Shown here: positions 3,425-36,347 of the stretch, piece by piece
Layout: each line of letters opens with the position of its first letter
Position numbering within the stretch: the first letter of the stretch is position 1
NCBI GenBank assembly: GCA_002839355.1
Contig: PGXW01000020.1
Coordinates: 1 to 51,394, forward strand
Reading direction: 5' to 3'
From: Spirochaetae bacterium HGW-Spirochaetae-2
Lineage (GTDB): Bacteria > Spirochaetota > Spirochaetia > Sphaerochaetales > Sphaerochaetaceae
Length of the DNA: 51,394 nt
Made by a program: the position numbers and the translations under genes
Notes under the pieces: generated by a model
Databases searched by the model: none
Seen by the model: only the letters and a program-made list of their open reading frames with translations
Told to the model about the DNA's origin: nothing

Positions 3425-4390
3425 CTAGTACTTCCTATCGAAATCCACCAGGTTTCTCATGTTCCTGTCGCCCAGGTAATGCGTCAGATTATTGAAAAAG
3501 ATATCGAACACCTTGTGGGGGTCGCTGGGCGAGAGACCGGAGGAGTGGGGTGTTATGAGCACATTGGGAAACGACCAGAGCTTCGATTCCTTCGGTAGCG
3601 GTTCCGGTTCGGTCACATCGAACCCCGCACCGGCCAAATGGCCGCTCTCGAGTGCCGCAACCACCGCATCCTGGTCGGCTAAGGACCCGCGGGCGACATT
3701 GATCAGATAAGAGCCTTGCTTCATGAGCCCGATCCGGCGGGAATCCATCAGATTCTCCGTCTGGGGAGTGGAAGCCGTACACAAAACCACATAATCTGCC
3801 TTTGGGAGCATTTCGTCCAACCGGTCGGTGGTATACAGTTCATCCACATAGTCGGGCTTGTCGGTGAGGGTGCGTTTGATCGCCACCACATGCATCTCGT
3901 GGGCTTTGGCCCGCTTGGCCACATTGGTGCCGATATCGCCGAGACCGATGAGCAGGATCGTACTCTCCCATAAATCGGTGACGGAAAAGTAGCGTTCCCA
4001 GCGTTTTTCCTTCATCTGGTCATGATAGGTGAGAAAAAGGTGGTTGAAGGCGATCACCATCCCCATGACATGGTCGCCGATCTGCCGTCCGTAGGTGCCG
4101 ACGGCGGACGTCAGCATGAAGTCGTCCTGTTGGTACAGGTTCCTGTCGACATACGGACCGACACCGGCACTCGGCGTCTGCAACCACTGCAGGTTCTTGG
4201 CTTTGGGCAAGTCCTTGGCCTTGGGAAATCCAACGATTATCTCAGCCGAAGCAAGTTGCTCGTCGGTATAGGCTTGCTCGTCGGTCACCGTCACATCGAG
4301 TTGTGGATACGATGCAGCCAGGCGACGCAGTTCGTCATCGGTGGGGTTGAAGTGGGAACAACGGAGGAACAGTGTATCAATCTTACGCAT
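3425..4390 (-). CDS. D-isomer-specific 2-hydroxyacid dehydrogenase
   Basis: This 321-residue NAD-dependent oxidoreductase has the phosphoglycerate dehydrogenase-like fold. The Rossmann motif GLGDIG lies near residue 148. The catalytic set is visible as the Arg in NVARGSL, the Glu in DVTEPEPL and the His in TPHSSG. The likely reaction is reversible reduction of a 2-keto acid to a D-2-hydroxy acid, with unknown substrate. The start ATG lies inside the last codons of the GntR/LacI regulator gene (8-base overlap), so the two are translationally coupled, with AAGGA about 8 bases upstream. Its stop codon is next to a palindromic repeat. Co-transcription with a regulator and an alcohol dehydrogenase suggests a role in the sugar or sugar-acid pathway encoded divergently. 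Confidence 0.88.
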   Translation of the reverse strand: MRKIDTLFLRCSHFNPTDDELRRLAASYPQLDVTVTDEQAYTDEQLASAEIIVGFPKAKDLPKAKNLQWLQTPSAGVGPYVDRNLYQQDDFMLTSAVGTYGRQIGDHVMGMVIAFNHLFLTYHDQMKEKRWERYFSVTDLWESTILLIGLGDIGTNVAKRAKAHEMHVVAIKRTLTDKPDYVDELYTTDRLDEMLPKADYVVLCTASTPQTENLMDSRRIGLMKQGSYLINVARGSLADQDAVVAALESGHLAGAGFDVTEPEPLPKESKLWSFPNVLITPHSSGLSPSDPHKVFDIFFNNLTHYLGDRNMRNLVDFDRKY

Positions 4391-5546
4391 CTTGCATTTC
4401 CTTGGCTTGAACTCGCAGTGGTTTTTTTATCCGGGGAACGACCGACGGAGGTACCGTGGCCGACTCGCGGAGCATGAGGGAGCAGGGGACATAGATTTTC
4501 AAGGTCTTGAGGTTGTCGGGTTCGTGCATCTGGGAGAATAGGCCTTGGATCGCACCGAGGGCCAGTTCCCGGATGCTGCTGTGCACGGTGGTAAGGGAAG
4601 GTATCGAGTAGCGGCTCTGTTCGATATCGTCGAAACCCACCACCGAGATGTCCTGCGGAACCCTGAGTCCCAACTCGTTCGCAGCCCGAAGGCACCCGAT
4701 GGCGATATTGTCGTTGAACCCGACAATCGCGGTCGGCAGCTCGTCGACACTGGTCAACAGTTCCTTGGTGATCTGGTAGGCGGTATCGGGTTCCCAATCG
4801 CAACTGACAATGTACGGGGCGGCGATGCGGTTCTTGAGGAACGAGTAGGTGCAACCGATCATGCGTTCGCGGGAAGTCAGATAGGTGCTGATACCTGTGA
4901 CCAGCGCGAACTTCCGGTGTCCCAACCCCACCAGGTAATCGCACATGTTGATCATGCCGGTCACATTGTCGGGCAGGTAGGAGAGGATGCCCGGATTGTG
5001 TTCGTTCACCAGCACGCAGGGAATCTTCGCTTGCAAGGCCATGTGGATGAACTTGTCGGCGGCATTGCTGACAAAGATGATCCCGTCGAAGTGCTGCCGT
5101 TCCAGCATGTTCTCGAAGTCATCGTTCTCATCGAGGGTGGAGTAGAAGCAAGCATAGCCTTTGGCCCGCGATTCCTTTTCGGTGTGGTAGAAGAGGGTGG
5201 AGTAGAACGGCTGGCTGATGCGGTCGGTGCGGTGCACGGATGGCGGTAGGAAAAAACCGATCGTGCCATGGGCCTTCTTTCGGGACTGTAGCGGCTGGGC
5301 TTCCTCCGCGAGCATGGAGGCCCCGCCATCGCGCACCACCTTGGTCCCGATCCCTGCAAGCTTGACCACAAGGCGATCGTCGACCAGCAGCTGCAATGCC
5401 TTGCGCACCGTCGTACGGTCGACACGGTGCTGTTCGCCGATCTCACGTTCGGACGGAAGCAATTCGCCGTCCTGGTACGTGCCGGAGAGGATCCCGGTCT
5501 TTATGGTGTCATAGACTTGTTCATACAACAGTTTGGTGTTGGCCAC
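4383..5546 (-). CDS. GntR-LacI hybrid transcriptional regulator (AraR type)
   Basis: This 387-residue protein has an N-terminal GntR winged helix (residues about 5-70; LLPSEREIGEQHRVDRTTVRKAL is seen as LLPSEREIGEQ plus VDRTTVRKAL) followed by a LacI/periplasmic-binding sensor domain (about 95-360; DGIIFVSN, SVVGFDDIEQSRYS, PSLTTV). This AraR-like architecture normally represses a sugar operon until a sugar or sugar derivative binds. I chose the GTG at 5546, since AGGAG lies about nine bases before it and no in-frame ATG precedes it. It is flanked by an iron alcohol dehydrogenase and a hydroxyacid dehydrogenase on the same strand, and its likely targets include the divergent TRAP promoter region. 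Confidence 0.88.
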   Translation of the reverse strand: MANTKLLYEQVYDTIKTGILSGTYQDGELLPSEREIGEQHRVDRTTVRKALQLLVDDRLVVKLAGIGTKVVRDGGASMLAEEAQPLQSRKKAHGTIGFFLPPSVHRTDRISQPFYSTLFYHTEKESRAKGYACFYSTLDENDDFENMLERQHFDGIIFVSNAADKFIHMALQAKIPCVLVNEHNPGILSYLPDNVTGMINMCDYLVGLGHRKFALVTGISTYLTSRERMIGCTYSFLKNRIAAPYIVSCDWEPDTAYQITKELLTSVDELPTAIVGFNDNIAIGCLRAANELGLRVPQDISVVGFDDIEQSRYSIPSLTTVHSSIRELALGAIQGLFSQMHEPDNLKTLKIYVPCSLMLRESATVPPSVVPRIKKPLRVQAKEMQDA

Positions 5547-29733: not shown

Positions 29734-31602
29734 TTAGTTTGCTACCCATGTCAACTTGGTGTAGTTGCGTGGACTAACCTCCACATTCTCCAGCATTCGC
29801 ATGGCAAGGTCAATAATTTGTTCGCCGTAGGATTCGGGATTATAGTGAACACACCCGATGATAGGGGATTGGCCGACCTTCATGAGTTCCTCGAGTTGCT
29901 TGGTGTGGTTGTGTCCGACGATGATGGTATTCACACAGTTGCGGTATTGCACGATGAGCTCATGGGACGCAAGGAGGTGCCGGAGGTTGAAGGCCATGAT
30001 CAACATGCTCTCGTCCTGGGGAATCTCCTTGAGCAGGTGCACCAGTTCTTGGGTGGGATTCACCTCTGGATTTCCCCACTCGATCGAGTGGACAGCGTGC
30101 TTGTCCACCTGGATTTGCCGTTCGATATGCTCCAATGCGCTCGATATCCGCAGTTTTGTGACCGGTTCATGTCCGTATTTGCCCAACACCACCAACCGAT
30201 TCAATTTTCCGCCCCAGTGTTCCTTGATGTAGGTTGCCGCCCGCTCACCGGCAATTTTGCCTGCCAGCGCATTGTCGGCTCCGAAATAGATTGCTCCCGG
30301 TGCGACATAGTCGACCGAGATGAGTCGTACACCGCGCGAAAGACAGCGTTCGCCCACATACATGAGTGACTCCGTGCAGAGGCTGTAGTCGATTACCAGA
30401 TCTACCTTTTCATCGAGCAGGATATTCAGGTTGCCTACGGTCGAGGCATAGTCGCCGTCGCATTCCCGGATCACCAGCGAGATCGACTTGCTGATCGATG
30501 TGGCTTCCAACAGACTGTTGTGCACAGCCTGGACGAAATAGTTGCGGTCCTTGTTGACAAGGAACCCGATACGGTGCTGTTGCTTGCTGACATTGCGGTA
30601 GGTGAAGTCGTGCCCGCAGATCACCAGCGGATCCTGCCGGGAGAAGAGGATGCTTGAGCGGAAGCTGCCGATCCCGTCATCTATCAGGACCTCCTGGATC
30701 TTCGATTGGAATTGACGGTGGTCGAATCTTTTGGTGCCCTGCACATCCAGGTATTTGGAATCGAGGATGATATACACTTTGTTCGCCCGCCTGCATATGG
30801 CCTCGAGCGTCCACAGGTCCTCATGTTCCCCGACGAAATAGGTGTGGGTGGCATAGGAGCTGCAACAGATGAACGCCTTGTCGATCTGCATGGAATCGGG
30901 CAAGACTGCGCCGGTTTCCAACTGGATTCGGGCATCGTTCACCGCAACGAATGTGCCGGGGACTGACACCGGATAGGCATAGTTGCGCGAGCGGAGGACA
31001 TCGAGCGTTTCCAGGCTGGTGGTGACTATCGGAATGTTGGAATAGGGTGGGAGTGTGGATGCGACGAACCGGGATACTTCCCCGTCATCGAGGAAGATGG
31101 TCTCGCCCGGATTGATGTGCATCACCGTATGGTGGCCGAGGATTTTGATACGTGAGGAGAATTCGCCATTCGTATCGGTCGGCACCAGCTCCAGCGACGA
31201 TTCGAACAGTGCGACCGAGCCGTGTTTGCGGATCACCGCTCCTTCTAGTTCGAGGGCAGCCAGATCGTTGCGGACCGTAATTGCGGAAACACGCAATTTG
31301 TTGGCCAAGGTGGTTACACGCATCTCCTTGTCCTGTCCAAGCAGCTGGATGATGCGTTGCCGTCGTTGTTCCTTGGAGAGGATGCCGGATGATTCCAACC
31401 GCGAGGCATTGTCCACCGAATCGATATAGCGGATCCTGCCGCGTTCCCGCATCACCAAGCCCGCTTCTTCCAACGGCAGCAATTCCTTCCGTATGGTCTC
31501 CCGGCTCAACTTGAACTGCTCCGACAACTCCGCCATGGTACTGTGGGGTTTCCCCGCAATGCGCTTCAAAAGAGCCAACCGTCGTTGATTCATTTCGTCC
31601 AT
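29734..31602 (-). CDS. Fusion regulator: two DeoR helix-turn-helices, DeoR sensor and periplasmic-binding domain
   Basis: This 622-residue protein has four parts. Residues about 5-60 form one DeoR-type winged helix (MAELSEQFKLSRETIRKEL). Residues about 80-140 form a second (TTLANKLRVSAITVRNDLAAL, seen as ANKLRVSAITVRNDL, then VIRKHGSVAL). Residues about 155-330 resemble the DeoRC sugar-phosphate sensor (NPGETIFLDDG, VTTSLETLDVL, RRANKVYIILDSKYL). Residues about 350-615 resemble a sugar-binding periplasmic-binding-protein/LacI sensor (HRIGFLVNKDRNYFVQAVH, VDLVIDYSL, IYFGADNALAGKIAGERAA). It could read two ligands. I chose ATG 31602; ATG 31593 is possible. It is divergent from the isomerase/TRAP operon, its likely target. 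Confidence 0.82.
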   Translation of the reverse strand: MDEMNQRRLALLKRIAGKPHSTMAELSEQFKLSRETIRKELLPLEEAGLVMRERGRIRYIDSVDNASRLESSGILSKEQRRQRIIQLLGQDKEMRVTTLANKLRVSAITVRNDLAALELEGAVIRKHGSVALFESSLELVPTDTNGEFSSRIKILGHHTVMHINPGETIFLDDGEVSRFVASTLPPYSNIPIVTTSLETLDVLRSRNYAYPVSVPGTFVAVNDARIQLETGAVLPDSMQIDKAFICCSSYATHTYFVGEHEDLWTLEAICRRANKVYIILDSKYLDVQGTKRFDHRQFQSKIQEVLIDDGIGSFRSSILFSRQDPLVICGHDFTYRNVSKQQHRIGFLVNKDRNYFVQAVHNSLLEATSISKSISLVIRECDGDYASTVGNLNILLDEKVDLVIDYSLCTESLMYVGERCLSRGVRLISVDYVAPGAIYFGADNALAGKIAGERAATYIKEHWGGKLNRLVVLGKYGHEPVTKLRISSALEHIERQIQVDKHAVHSIEWGNPEVNPTQELVHLLKEIPQDESMLIMAFNLRHLLASHELIVQYRNCVNTIIVGHNHTKQLEELMKVGQSPIIGCVHYNPESYGEQIIDLAMRMLENVEVSPRNYTKLTWVAN

Positions 31603-31727
31603 GGCGCAATCGTAGCACGCCGCAAGTGTATTCGTAAAGCGAAAGTTTAAAGATATTATATAAATAAGTAAAATATATAAATATAAATATAATAAAAGAT
31701 TAATTATTAATAGATGCAAGAAAAATG

Positions 31728-31779
31728 CAATACTATTGTAGTAATATTGTTTGACTTATCGATTGGCGACCTTGATAAT
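31728..31779 (+). promoter_or_regulatory. Isomerase/TRAP operon promoter with candidate operator
   Basis: TTGACT (31751-31756), 17 bases and GATAAT (31774-31779) form a near-consensus promoter. Immediately upstream, CAATACTA-N6-TAATATTG (31728-31749) is an inverted repeat with one mismatch, a candidate operator for the divergent fusion regulator. The 31620-31727 stretch is very AT-rich and shows no gene. Confidence 0.55.
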
Positions 31780-31793
31780 GAAATGTGTCGGCA

Positions 31794-31830
31794 CCCCTGG
31801 TCAAGGGGAAGACCCAAGAGGCGTTGCCTC
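31794..31830 (+). promoter_or_regulatory. Two tandem hairpins in the isomerase leader
   Basis: CCCCT-N5-AGGGG (31794-31808) and GAGGC-GTT-GCCTC (31818-31830) lie 15-50 bases after the predicted -10 box, in a leader of roughly 190 bases before the isomerase start. The leader could stabilize the message or take part in regulation. I do not recognise a riboswitch class. Confidence 0.35.
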
Positions 31831-31979
31831 CTGGACCGTCCGAGGGGCGAGGTATGGGATTTGATGTTTCCAGCACTCGGTCGGGAGAGTTGCCAGCAAG
31901 CTGACTGCTTTCCGCTTGCTTCTTTTGGAATTGAATTTGAGGATGCCTGCCATCCTCTGGAACATGTGGAGGATTATCG

Positions 31980-33464: not shown

Positions 33465-34031
33465 ATGAGATTGATAAAACGGATGTTGGAGGAGATCATG
33501 CGGGTGGAAATCCTCATCGGTGCCTTCCTCATCATAACGATGGTCGTGATCATGGTGCTCGAGGTGGTGATGCGATATGTCTTCAACAACTCCATCATCT
33601 GGGTCCAGGAATTCGTTATCCTGGTCTTCATCTGGATAACCATGTTGGGTGGAAGTGCCGCCTCCATGACCAAGACACATGTGACGATCACCACCTTCAG
33701 CCAGTTCATCTCGGGCAAATGGAAGATCGGCCTGCAAATCTTGGTCTCCCTGGTGATTCTTGGCGTATTGGTCTACCTGGCCATGAACTTGCCCGCATCT
33801 ATCGCCATCCAAAACAAGACACGGACTTCTTCCATGCCGATCAACATCGCCAAGGGGCACTACTACTCGTCACCGCTGCTGTTCGCAGTGGTACTCATGC
33901 TCATCACCGAGGTGTATTACATCTATTACGAGGTCCGCTCACTGCTTGGAAAGGCGATTCCCGATGACTATGTCCTTGAGTTGCGAGGATTTCTGAGGAA
34001 GAGCACCGATGGGAAGGGGGGCGCCGTATGA
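33465..34031 (+). CDS. TRAP transporter small permease (DctQ family)
   Basis: This 188-residue protein has four helices, the DctQ hallmark IIWVQEFVILVFIWITMLGG near residues 45-65, and SSPLLFAVVLML near the C-terminal helix. It follows the isomerase after 30 bases with GGGAG before its ATG. The DctM gene overlaps its last codon (ATGA). Compared with the other DctQ proteins here it has a longer C-terminal tail. Confidence 0.9.
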   Translation: MRLIKRMLEEIMRVEILIGAFLIITMVVIMVLEVVMRYVFNNSIIWVQEFVILVFIWITMLGGSAASMTKTHVTITTFSQFISGKWKIGLQILVSLVILGVLVYLAMNLPASIAIQNKTRTSSMPINIAKGHYYSSPLLFAVVLMLITEVYYIYYEVRSLLGKAIPDDYVLELRGFLRKSTDGKGGAV

Positions 34032-35311
34032 ATTTTACCTGGATGATCGTGTTCATCTTTGTCGCGGTGTTCCTCGAAGTTCCGGTCGCTTTCTCGTTCA
34101 TCTTCGGAACGGTGGTGTACCTGATTATCGGCGATGTCTTCCCCATCACGGTGGTAGCCGGTCGTCTCGGACCCGGACTCGACAGTTTCCCGTTGTTGGC
34201 CCTGCCATTGTTCGTCTTTGCCGGGAACCTGCTGGGTGGCAGTGGCATAGCCAAGAGGATATTCGGATTTGCCAACAGTGCGGTCGGACATATTCCCGGC
34301 GGACTGGGACATGTGAACGTACTTTCCAGCATCGTGTTCGCGGGCATGTCGGGAGTGGCCATGGCTGATGCCGCAGGTCTGGGAAAGATCGAGATGGAGG
34401 AGATGCAGCGCCACGGGTACCCGATACCGTTTTCGGCTGCCATCACCGCCGCATCCGCAACCATCGGTCCGATCATCCCTCCAAGCGGGCAAATGGTGAT
34501 CATTGCGGTTCTCGCCAACATAGCGTTGGACAAGTTGTTCCTCGCGGGGTTTATCCCGGGGCTCATGTTGGGCGGGTTTCTCATGGTGACCATCTATATC
34601 ATGGTACGCACGGGGAGGGTGAACGTCTCGGTATTGCCCAAGGAACCCCTGTCTGTCAGGTTGTCCAATTTCGTCAAGGCGGCTCCGGCACTGGCAGTCC
34701 CGATCTTCCTGATTGTCGGATTGGTCACCGGGGTGGCTACCCCTACCGAACTAGGTGCGTTGACTTGTCTGTTCGCCATCATCCTGGGGTTTGTCTACAA
34801 GGACCTGACCTGGCGTTCCTTCTTCGGTTGTGCCATGGAGTCCGCCAAGACCACCGGCATCCTGGGGATGCTGCTTCTGGTTGCCAATCCCTTCACCTGG
34901 CTCATGGGTGTGGGCAATGTGGGAATGCAATTGCAGGTTTTCATGATGGAGCTCACCACCAACCCGATAGTATTTTTGTTGTTGGCCAATGTGGTGCTGC
35001 TGATCGCGGGGATGTTGATGGAAACCACGGTGGTCGTATTGATCGCGGCACCGATCATGTTTCCCATAGCCGCAAGCTACGGTATCGATTCGATTCACTT
35101 TGCCATGGTGCTGCTGATCAACCTGCTCATGGGTACGCTTACTCCGCCATTCGGTTCGCTGCTGTTCGTCATGATGAACCAGACGAAGCTCACCCTTGCA
35201 CAGATGTTCCGGGCAGTCGCGCCGTTCTATTTCCCGTACCTGGCGTTCTTGCTGTTGATCACATTCGTGCCGTCGATCACAACGTTCGTTCCGCGTCTCT
35301 TCGGGGCGTGA
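34028..35311 (+). CDS. TRAP transporter large permease (DctM family)
   Basis: This 427-residue polytopic protein shows LGPGLDSFPLLALPLFVFAG, GMSGVAMADAAGLGKIEMEE, IIPPSGQMVIIA and MGTLTPPFGSLLFV, all DctM landmarks. It forms the channel with the overlapping DctQ. A 37-base gap leads to the DctP gene, so here the order is Q-M-P, the third different arrangement in this window. Confidence 0.92.
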   Translation: MNFTWMIVFIFVAVFLEVPVAFSFIFGTVVYLIIGDVFPITVVAGRLGPGLDSFPLLALPLFVFAGNLLGGSGIAKRIFGFANSAVGHIPGGLGHVNVLSSIVFAGMSGVAMADAAGLGKIEMEEMQRHGYPIPFSAAITAASATIGPIIPPSGQMVIIAVLANIALDKLFLAGFIPGLMLGGFLMVTIYIMVRTGRVNVSVLPKEPLSVRLSNFVKAAPALAVPIFLIVGLVTGVATPTELGALTCLFAIILGFVYKDLTWRSFFGCAMESAKTTGILGMLLLVANPFTWLMGVGNVGMQLQVFMMELTTNPIVFLLLANVVLLIAGMLMETTVVVLIAAPIMFPIAASYGIDSIHFAMVLLINLLMGTLTPPFGSLLFVMMNQTKLTLAQMFRAVAPFYFPYLAFLLLITFVPSITTFVPRLFGA

Positions 35312-35348
35312 CCCCGTTATGCATATGCATCTTTTCAAGGAGGAATAT

Positions 35349-36347
35349 ATGAAAAGGATTTCTGTAGTACTGTTGATGCTCGTTTTGGTTACGGGCATGG
35401 TGTTCGCCGCCGCTTCAGCCGAGCAGCAGCAGGCCAAGACCATCACATTGGCAACTGGTGATGCCATCGGTTCATTGCGCAACCTCGCAGGCGAATATTT
35501 CAAGGCCGAGATCGAGAAGCGACCCGAATTGAATCTCAAGGTGAATCATGTGCAGGGTGCGGTTATCGGAACAGCCAGCCAGATCATGGACCAGGTGGTC
35601 GAAGGCAGTGTCCATCTCTTTGGCAACGATATCGCTTGGATTGTTCCCTATAATCCTGATTTCCAACCGATCAGTTTCGGTTTCATGTATCGCGATGTCG
35701 ACCACATGAATGCCTACTTCAAGAGCCGTGTGTTCCTTGACCTTGCCGACAAGGTTGCCCAGGACAGTGGTATGCGTATAATCGCTCCCGTTCCCATGGC
35801 TTCCCGCATGTTCTTCTCGGTCAAGCCGCTCACAACCGTGCAGGATTTCAAGGGCTTGAAGGTACGTGCTCCCGGGCTCGAGATGTTCGTGAAATCGTAT
35901 GAGGCCTACGGAGCCAGTCCGACCACTGTCGCTTGGAACGAGATTTTCCTTGCGCTCAAGACCAAGTTGGTTGAGGCTGCACATGGTCCGGTGGCCGACG
36001 TGATTGCCAACAAGTGGCATCTTGCCGCTCCCTATATCACCCGCACCGAAGACATGTACGCGGCAAACGCCTGGTATGTGAACGAACCGTTCTGGAAGGC
36101 TTTGAGCGATGCCCAGCGCAAGGGTATTCAGGAGGCGTTGGATGCAACCAACGTGTGGTCTTTCGAGCAGTCGAAGGCTTCGGAACAAAGTCTGATCGAT
36201 CAGATGGTATCCGAGGGAGCGATATACAACAGCTCGTTCGCCGACCGCGAGGCATTGCGTTCCCAGGCGATCGATGCGGTCAAGAAACTTGAGGCTTCCG
36301 GCAAATGGTCGTCGGGATTGGTGGACGCAATCCAGGCTATTAAATAA
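35349..36347 (+). CDS. TRAP transporter solute-binding protein (DctP family)
   Basis: This 332-residue protein has a signal peptide MKRISVVLLMLVLVTGMVFA. Segments typical of DctP are EGSVHLFGND, FKGLKVRAPGLEMFVKSYEA (with the substrate-binding Arg) and AWNEIFLALKTKLVEAAHGP, where the usual GVVDG is altered to KLVEA. AAGGAGGAA precedes the ATG. It ends the isomerase/TRAP operon and is followed by a terminator-like hairpin. Confidence 0.9.
   Translation: MKRISVVLLMLVLVTGMVFAAASAEQQQAKTITLATGDAIGSLRNLAGEYFKAEIEKRPELNLKVNHVQGAVIGTASQIMDQVVEGSVHLFGNDIAWIVPYNPDFQPISFGFMYRDVDHMNAYFKSRVFLDLADKVAQDSGMRIIAPVPMASRMFFSVKPLTTVQDFKGLKVRAPGLEMFVKSYEAYGASPTTVAWNEIFLALKTKLVEAAHGPVADVIANKWHLAAPYITRTEDMYAANAWYVNEPFWKALSDAQRKGIQEALDATNVWSFEQSKASEQSLIDQMVSEGAIYNSSFADREALRSQAIDAVKKLEASGKWSSGLVDAIQAIK

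Follow-up and report, generated by a model that had tools for sequence, protein, structure and literature searches.

A DeoR-type regulator with two winged helices and a solute-binding-protein-like domain, encoded divergently from a sugar isomerase-TRAP transporter operon in Sphaerochaetaceae

In the window, i.e., the whole 51,394-nucleotide stretch of Spirochaetae bacterium HGW-Spirochaetae-2 DNA that was analyzed, we found a gene encoding a composite regulator, back to back with an operon for a sugar isomerase homolog and a TRAP transporter (Table 1). ORF analysis reproduced exactly the reading frame proposed in an earlier note on this DNA, and Pfam recovered the four domains that the note had read from it, in the order winged helix (wHTH), winged helix, DeoRC, and periplasmic-binding-protein-like (PBP) domain. 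All four exceed their cut-offs: HTH_DeoR (PF08220, cut-off 21 bits) at residues 7-62 (38.8 bits) and 80-135 (50.1 bits), DeoRC (PF00455, cut-off 31.8 bits) at residues 156-290 (49.9 bits), and Peripla_BP_4 (PF13407, cut-off 35.1 bits) at residues 345-605 (35.9 bits, or 39.0 bits when the C-terminal domain was scanned alone). An assembly or annotation artefact is ruled out, as five genomes share the open frame without stops. The architecture is regarded here as an uncommon composite of a duplicated DeoR winged helix, a remodeled and probably disabled DeoR sensor, and a captured solute-binding domain. The earlier note had known of no described family with this arrangement; keyword searches of open-access papers likewise found no published description, which lends that remark weak support, and searching was mostly confined to Spirochaetota.

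Table 1. Features of the regulator-operon locus, with positions in the window.
Feature	Coordinates	Strand	Basis
Composite regulator, 622 aa + stop	29734..31602	-	ATG start at 31602, stop at 29734-29736; ORF, Pfam, orthologs
Winged helix 1 (residues about 3-62)	31417..31602	-	HTH_DeoR 38.8-39.3 bits; AF2 wHTH + wing
Winged helix 2 (residues about 77-135)	31198..31374	-	HTH_DeoR 50.1-51 bits; AF2 wHTH + wing; VIA-align
DeoRC domain (about residues 156-312), inducer/phosphate site replaced (E175, V176, E267, Y284)	30667..31137	-	PF00455; residue comparison
Solute-binding-protein-like domain (residues 340-622)	29737..30585	-	PF13407; BLASTP; RbsB/AraF-type fold matches; tree
Predicted operator, three 11-bp-spaced repeats TGCAATACTAT / TGTAGTAATAT / TGTTTGACTTA	31726..31758	+	Five-locus conservation
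Sigma-70-type promoter TTGACT-17-GATAAT of the isomerase/TRAP operon	31751..31779	+	Scan; same hexamers in five loci
AraA/FucI-like sugar isomerase homolog, 484 aa	31980..33434	+	PF11762, PF02952
TRAP small permease DctQ	33465..34031	+	PF04290
TRAP large permease DctM	34028..35311	+	PF06808, TIGR00786
TRAP solute-binding protein DctP	35346..36347	+	PF03480; 85% conserved in Sphaerochaeta halotolerans

Full-length orthologs of the regulator are present in five of the 139 genomes of the order, the window genome included, with identities to the window protein of 96% (G123), 69% (Sphaerochaeta halotolerans, G093), 63% (G091), and 61% (G090). The survey of architecture and neighbors proposed in the earlier note gave the same answer in every case: all five orthologs have the four domains in the same order, and all five lie back to back with isomerase-DctQ-DctM-DctP. 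Across the four different genomic contexts, conservation is limited to the regulator and the four-gene operon; since the three ortholog loci outside the window's genus have nothing else nearby in common with the window, these genes form a five-gene unit. A five-sequence profile (E<=1e-20) found no further full-length matches outside the genus in 393 sampled Spirochaetota genomes, a sample whose list did not include the other three ortholog genomes. On plasmids, no place matched the architecture at more than 41% coverage, and a scan of 84,980 genomes used exact peptides, which reach close relatives only.

The linkage of regulator and operon is strict also in distribution, the isomerase clade (>75% identity) being confined to the same five of 139 genomes. 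The isomerase is remote from characterized enzymes (64 bits against the L-arabinose isomerase model, whose cut-off is 622), and it retains the aligned second glutamate of AraA (GEYD/GEGD) and the THH/AHH histidine, both of which are metal ligands in AraA. A kinase gene is absent from the operon. TRAP binding proteins usually bind carboxylates via the arginine of a GLK-[LV]-R motif, and the window DctP carries GLKVR. Candidates for the ligand of the system are a 6-deoxy sugar and a sugar acid. Distant relatives of the isomerase (31-42% identity) in other genomes of the family adjoin L-rhamnose genes: one AraA/FucI-like protein (L050, in G020) is next to L-rhamnose mutarotase, and two others (L051 in G075 and L053 in G050) are next to rhamnulokinase and rhamnulose-1-phosphate aldolase genes. 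These three proteins, of about 472-479 aa, are candidate non-orthologous L-rhamnose isomerases. As a named ligand of the present system, L-rhamnose is a lead only, since RhaD was not found above the cut-off in any of the five regulator genomes, and the rhamnulokinase homologs in these genomes score below the cut-off.

When the five intergenic regions were aligned, the one conserved block was a set of three repeats, idealized as TTGCAAATATA TTGTAAATATA TTGTTTGACTT, with a spacing of exactly 11 bp that is identical in all five loci. Among its 33 columns, 19 are invariant across four lineages, compared with a maximum of 12 and a mean of 9.9 in 40 dinucleotide-preserving shuffles. Searched with up to three mismatches, the operator pattern gave no second hit in the four genomes where it recovers the operator; in the fifth, S. 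halotolerans, the own site is too divergent for the search pattern. The repeat at 31728-31749, which the earlier note had singled out for binding tests, lies within this conserved operator, which is better described as a run of 11-bp direct repeats than as a dyad. The published sites of the DeoR-family regulator RhaR likewise consist of direct repeats of 10-11 bp, and RhaR of Chloroflexus aurantiacus occupies four tandem repeats spanning 38 bp, from which it is released by unphosphorylated L-rhamnulose (PMC3870299).

The regulator ATG and the first repeat are 121-123 bp apart in each of the five genomes, with diverged AT-rich sequence in between (31603-31726), and a constraint on spacing or on DNA bending is a possible explanation of this fixed distance. 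At 31603-31625 (-), four of the five genomes carry an extended -10-like TGnTAnnAT 6 nt before the start codon of the regulator; this proximity and the absence of a clear Shine-Dalgarno sequence suggest a leaderless regulator mRNA. On the other side, the isomerase leader is 200 nt long in the window (31780-31979), compared with 115 nt in the sister species and 38-50 nt in the remaining genomes. In the window, the extra sequence is GC-rich, and no structured RNA was detected in the leader at 31785-31979 by folding (z=-0.31) or by Rfam matching.

In all five loci, repeat 3 overlaps the -35 hexamer TTGACT of the isomerase promoter, with a spacer of 17-18 bp to a GATAAT-type -10. A local repressor is the simplest way to read the conserved operator, its overlap with the -35, the genomic linkage, and the RhaR-type repeats together. 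It is also conceivable that the protein acts from beside the -35 as a ligand-dependent activator, or as a combined repressor/activator, that recruits RNA polymerase, as two of the three repeats sit just upstream of the -35, in the position that activators use. This seems rather unlikely to us, because the promoter is already near consensus (10/12), repeat 3 overlaps the -35, and most DeoR-family regulators act as repressors.

The two winged helices were resolved by structure prediction as the earlier note had anticipated, each confidently in one of two shallow AlphaFold2 models. The first comprises H3-17/H23-30/H34-46/E50-53/E56-59, with a mean pLDDT of about 74-83 over residues 11-60, and the second comprises H77-90/E93-95/H96-103/H107-119/E123-126/E129-132, with a pLDDT of about 80-87. 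VIA-align places the second close to winged-helix regulators (Z about 10-11, rmsd 1.1-2.9 over 58-71 residues), and homology between the two copies is still detectable (15/57 identical, E=1e-6). The full-length AlphaFold2 model, built on a three-row alignment, is poor (mean pLDDT 46.8), so that lobe geometry and the pocket rest on sequence alignment; viral contigs searched for extra alignment rows contributed one usable DeoR protein.

The DeoRC domain was compared, residue by residue, between the five fusions and 15 single-wHTH DeoR proteins of related spirochaetes. The G-[ST]-T loop, which varies little or not at all among the comparators, is G-E-V in all fusions. Its threonine and the DxxK lysine are canonical in 15/15 comparators and replaced in 5/5 fusions, the lysine by Y/F. 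Two further inducer-site positions that hardly vary in the comparators have also changed in the same five proteins, the basic residue at 219 to V/L/A and the K/R at 267 to E. The fusions thus lack the G[ST]T loop and the DxxK lysine that characterize the inducer/phosphate site of DeoR/GlpR regulators. According to work cited in PMC10991401, the aspartate and the lysine of DxxK are necessary for inducer binding in LacR, as mutation showed for the lysine, and both take part in inducer binding in UlaR. The replacements in the fusions make it unlikely that the DeoRC domain senses a phosphosugar. E175, V176, and E267 are invariant among the fusions rather than drifting, and such replacements could accommodate a new ligand instead of none.

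The residue comparison bears directly on the earlier note's suggestion that the protein could combine two signals, in which case DeoRC would respond to a phosphorylated intermediate inside the cell and the PBP domain to a free sugar. In favor of this scheme, the DeoRC domain is kept at the family level (49.9 bits) and is about 54% identical between lineages. Nevertheless, none of the five fusions retains the G[ST]T loop, the lysine of DxxK, or the basic residues at positions 219 and 267; one of the replacements is acidic and sits in the phosphate loop, and the operon holds no kinase gene. We therefore regard the integration of two such signals as improbable. The phosphorylated-signal half of the suggestion is not supported by the DeoRC site, and the free-sugar half is supported by the C-terminal domain, as described below.

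Peripla_BP_4 is the sole Pfam match of the C-terminal domain. Its closest exported relative found is an RbsB-like protein of the sister species (L062; BLASTP E=9e-19 over 255 residues), and its best PDB profile match is the BT1754 sensor (2x7x, E=0.0017). Despite the poor whole-chain model, the structures that its C-terminal part matches are those of sugar-binding proteins and of PBP-type sensors, including 2ioy by Foldseek (E=4.8e-7) and, for one lobe, the arabinose-binding protein 4kzk by VIA-align (Z 13.4, rmsd 2.8 Å over 142 residues). For the binding-protein fold, the sequence evidence is stronger than the model evidence. The PBP domain is also the most conserved among the orthologs, with 70% mean pairwise identity and 57% invariant positions, against 54% and 34% for DeoRC; the winged helices have 55% (first) and 68% (second) mean pairwise identity. 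In the alignment to 2ioy, Asp89, Arg141, and Asn190 of ribose-binding protein, which are ribose ligands there, correspond to D431, R485, and N539, kept in all five orthologs (the 2ioy chain runs one residue ahead of the E. coli numbering after 141, and alignment positions were shifted by one column there). Other ribose contacts differ in the fusion domain (Arg90 to Tyr, Asp215 to Asn, Gln235 to Tyr), and because several such positions differ, ribose itself is unlikely as the ligand. On these aligned residues, the C-terminal domain is likely a free-sugar sensor. That this domain would merely serve structure or oligomerization, while a remodeled DeoRC senses a new unphosphorylated ligand, is very improbable: the replaced DeoRC residues are themselves invariant and free L-rhamnulose is known to act on one DeoR regulator (C. 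aurantiacus RhaR, PMC3870299), but it is the PBP domain that is most conserved and keeps the Asp/Arg/Asn sugar ligands.

The earlier note had described the C-terminal domain as LacI/periplasmic-binding-like, and it is the second of these affinities that stands. In a tree built with the exported binding proteins and the LacI- and GntR-type regulators of the window genome, the fusion domain falls within a clade (100/100) with the exported ABC-type binding proteins L062, L063, and L064. The LacI and GntR sensors form a separate clade (100/100), with one long-branch LacI-like row elsewhere. A LacI-type HTH (PF00356) is absent from the Pfam matches of the regulator, and its N-terminus has no hydrophobic stretch, i.e., none of the signal peptide expected of an exported solute-binding protein. 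The clade with exported binding proteins makes it probable that the transport side was the source of the captured sensor, in an event distinct from the origin of LacI-type regulators. At the L062 locus (G123:C43:4500-13000), the RbsB-like binding protein, an ABC ATPase, a permease, and a DeoR gene directly downstream form one operon. An origin of the regulator by fusion of this binding protein with the DeoR gene beside it was considered; the DeoR half of the regulator does not group there (on long branches), so a simple fusion of those neighbors is unsupported.

We infer that the protein is a local sugar-responsive repressor of the divergent operon, in which sensing has moved from DeoRC to the captured solute-binding domain, and we consider this reading reasonably probable as a whole. 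The protein would bind as an oligomer, each subunit contributing two winged helices, to the three helically phased repeats (31726-31758), thereby blocking the -35 of the isomerase-TRAP operon. DeoRC, having lost its inducer residues, would most likely serve oligomerization and transmission. The C-terminal domain would bind what is probably a free sugar or sugar acid, either imported by the TRAP transporter or produced by the isomerase, and closure of its two lobes around this ligand would release the operator. Repression, the oligomeric state, and the ligand thus all belong to the proposed part of this scheme. The evolutionary counterpart, to which we give an even chance, is a swap of sensors: the phosphosugar site was disabled and fixed in that state by selection, a solute-binding domain acquired from an ABC transporter assumed allosteric control, independently of the LacI origin, and the duplicated winged helix reads the three repeats.

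The composite regulator shares features with several known systems. Like the DeoR/GlpR repressors (GlpR, AgaR, LacR, UlaR, RhaR), it has a DeoR-type winged helix, a DeoRC domain, an 11-bp direct-repeat operator, and a local sugar operon. It differs from them in having two winged helices rather than one, a replaced inducer site, and an extra 280-residue solute-binding domain, and at 622 aa it is well outside their usual format of about 250 aa with one wHTH and one sensor. With the LacI/GalR family and the GntR-type AraR, it shares the combination of a DNA-binding domain and a PBP fold that would serve as a sugar-binding cytoplasmic sensor; by contrast, its winged helices are of DeoR type, it has no LacI HTH, and its PBP domain lies outside the LacI/GntR sensor clade. 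The same window also encodes, at 4383-5546 (-), a protein of AraR-like architecture, with a GntR-type HTH joined to a Peripla_BP_3 sensor. Cluster-B ABC sugar-binding proteins (RbsB; L062) are homologous to the C-terminal domain over its full length (E=9e-19), whereas the fusion domain is joined to a regulator, cytoplasmic, and without a signal peptide. The hybrid two-component sensor BT1754 (2x7x) likewise uses an RbsB-type domain as its sensor, but it is a periplasmic sensor kinase with no DeoR repressor fusion.

If our reading is correct, the regulator would independently, and apparently more recently, parallel the rise of LacI-type regulators, with a transport binding protein turned into the cytoplasmic sensor of a repressor. 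With the displaced DeoR sensor still in the same chain, the rewiring of allosteric control between unrelated domains would be directly testable. The composite would also be a practical architecture for building sugar sensors.
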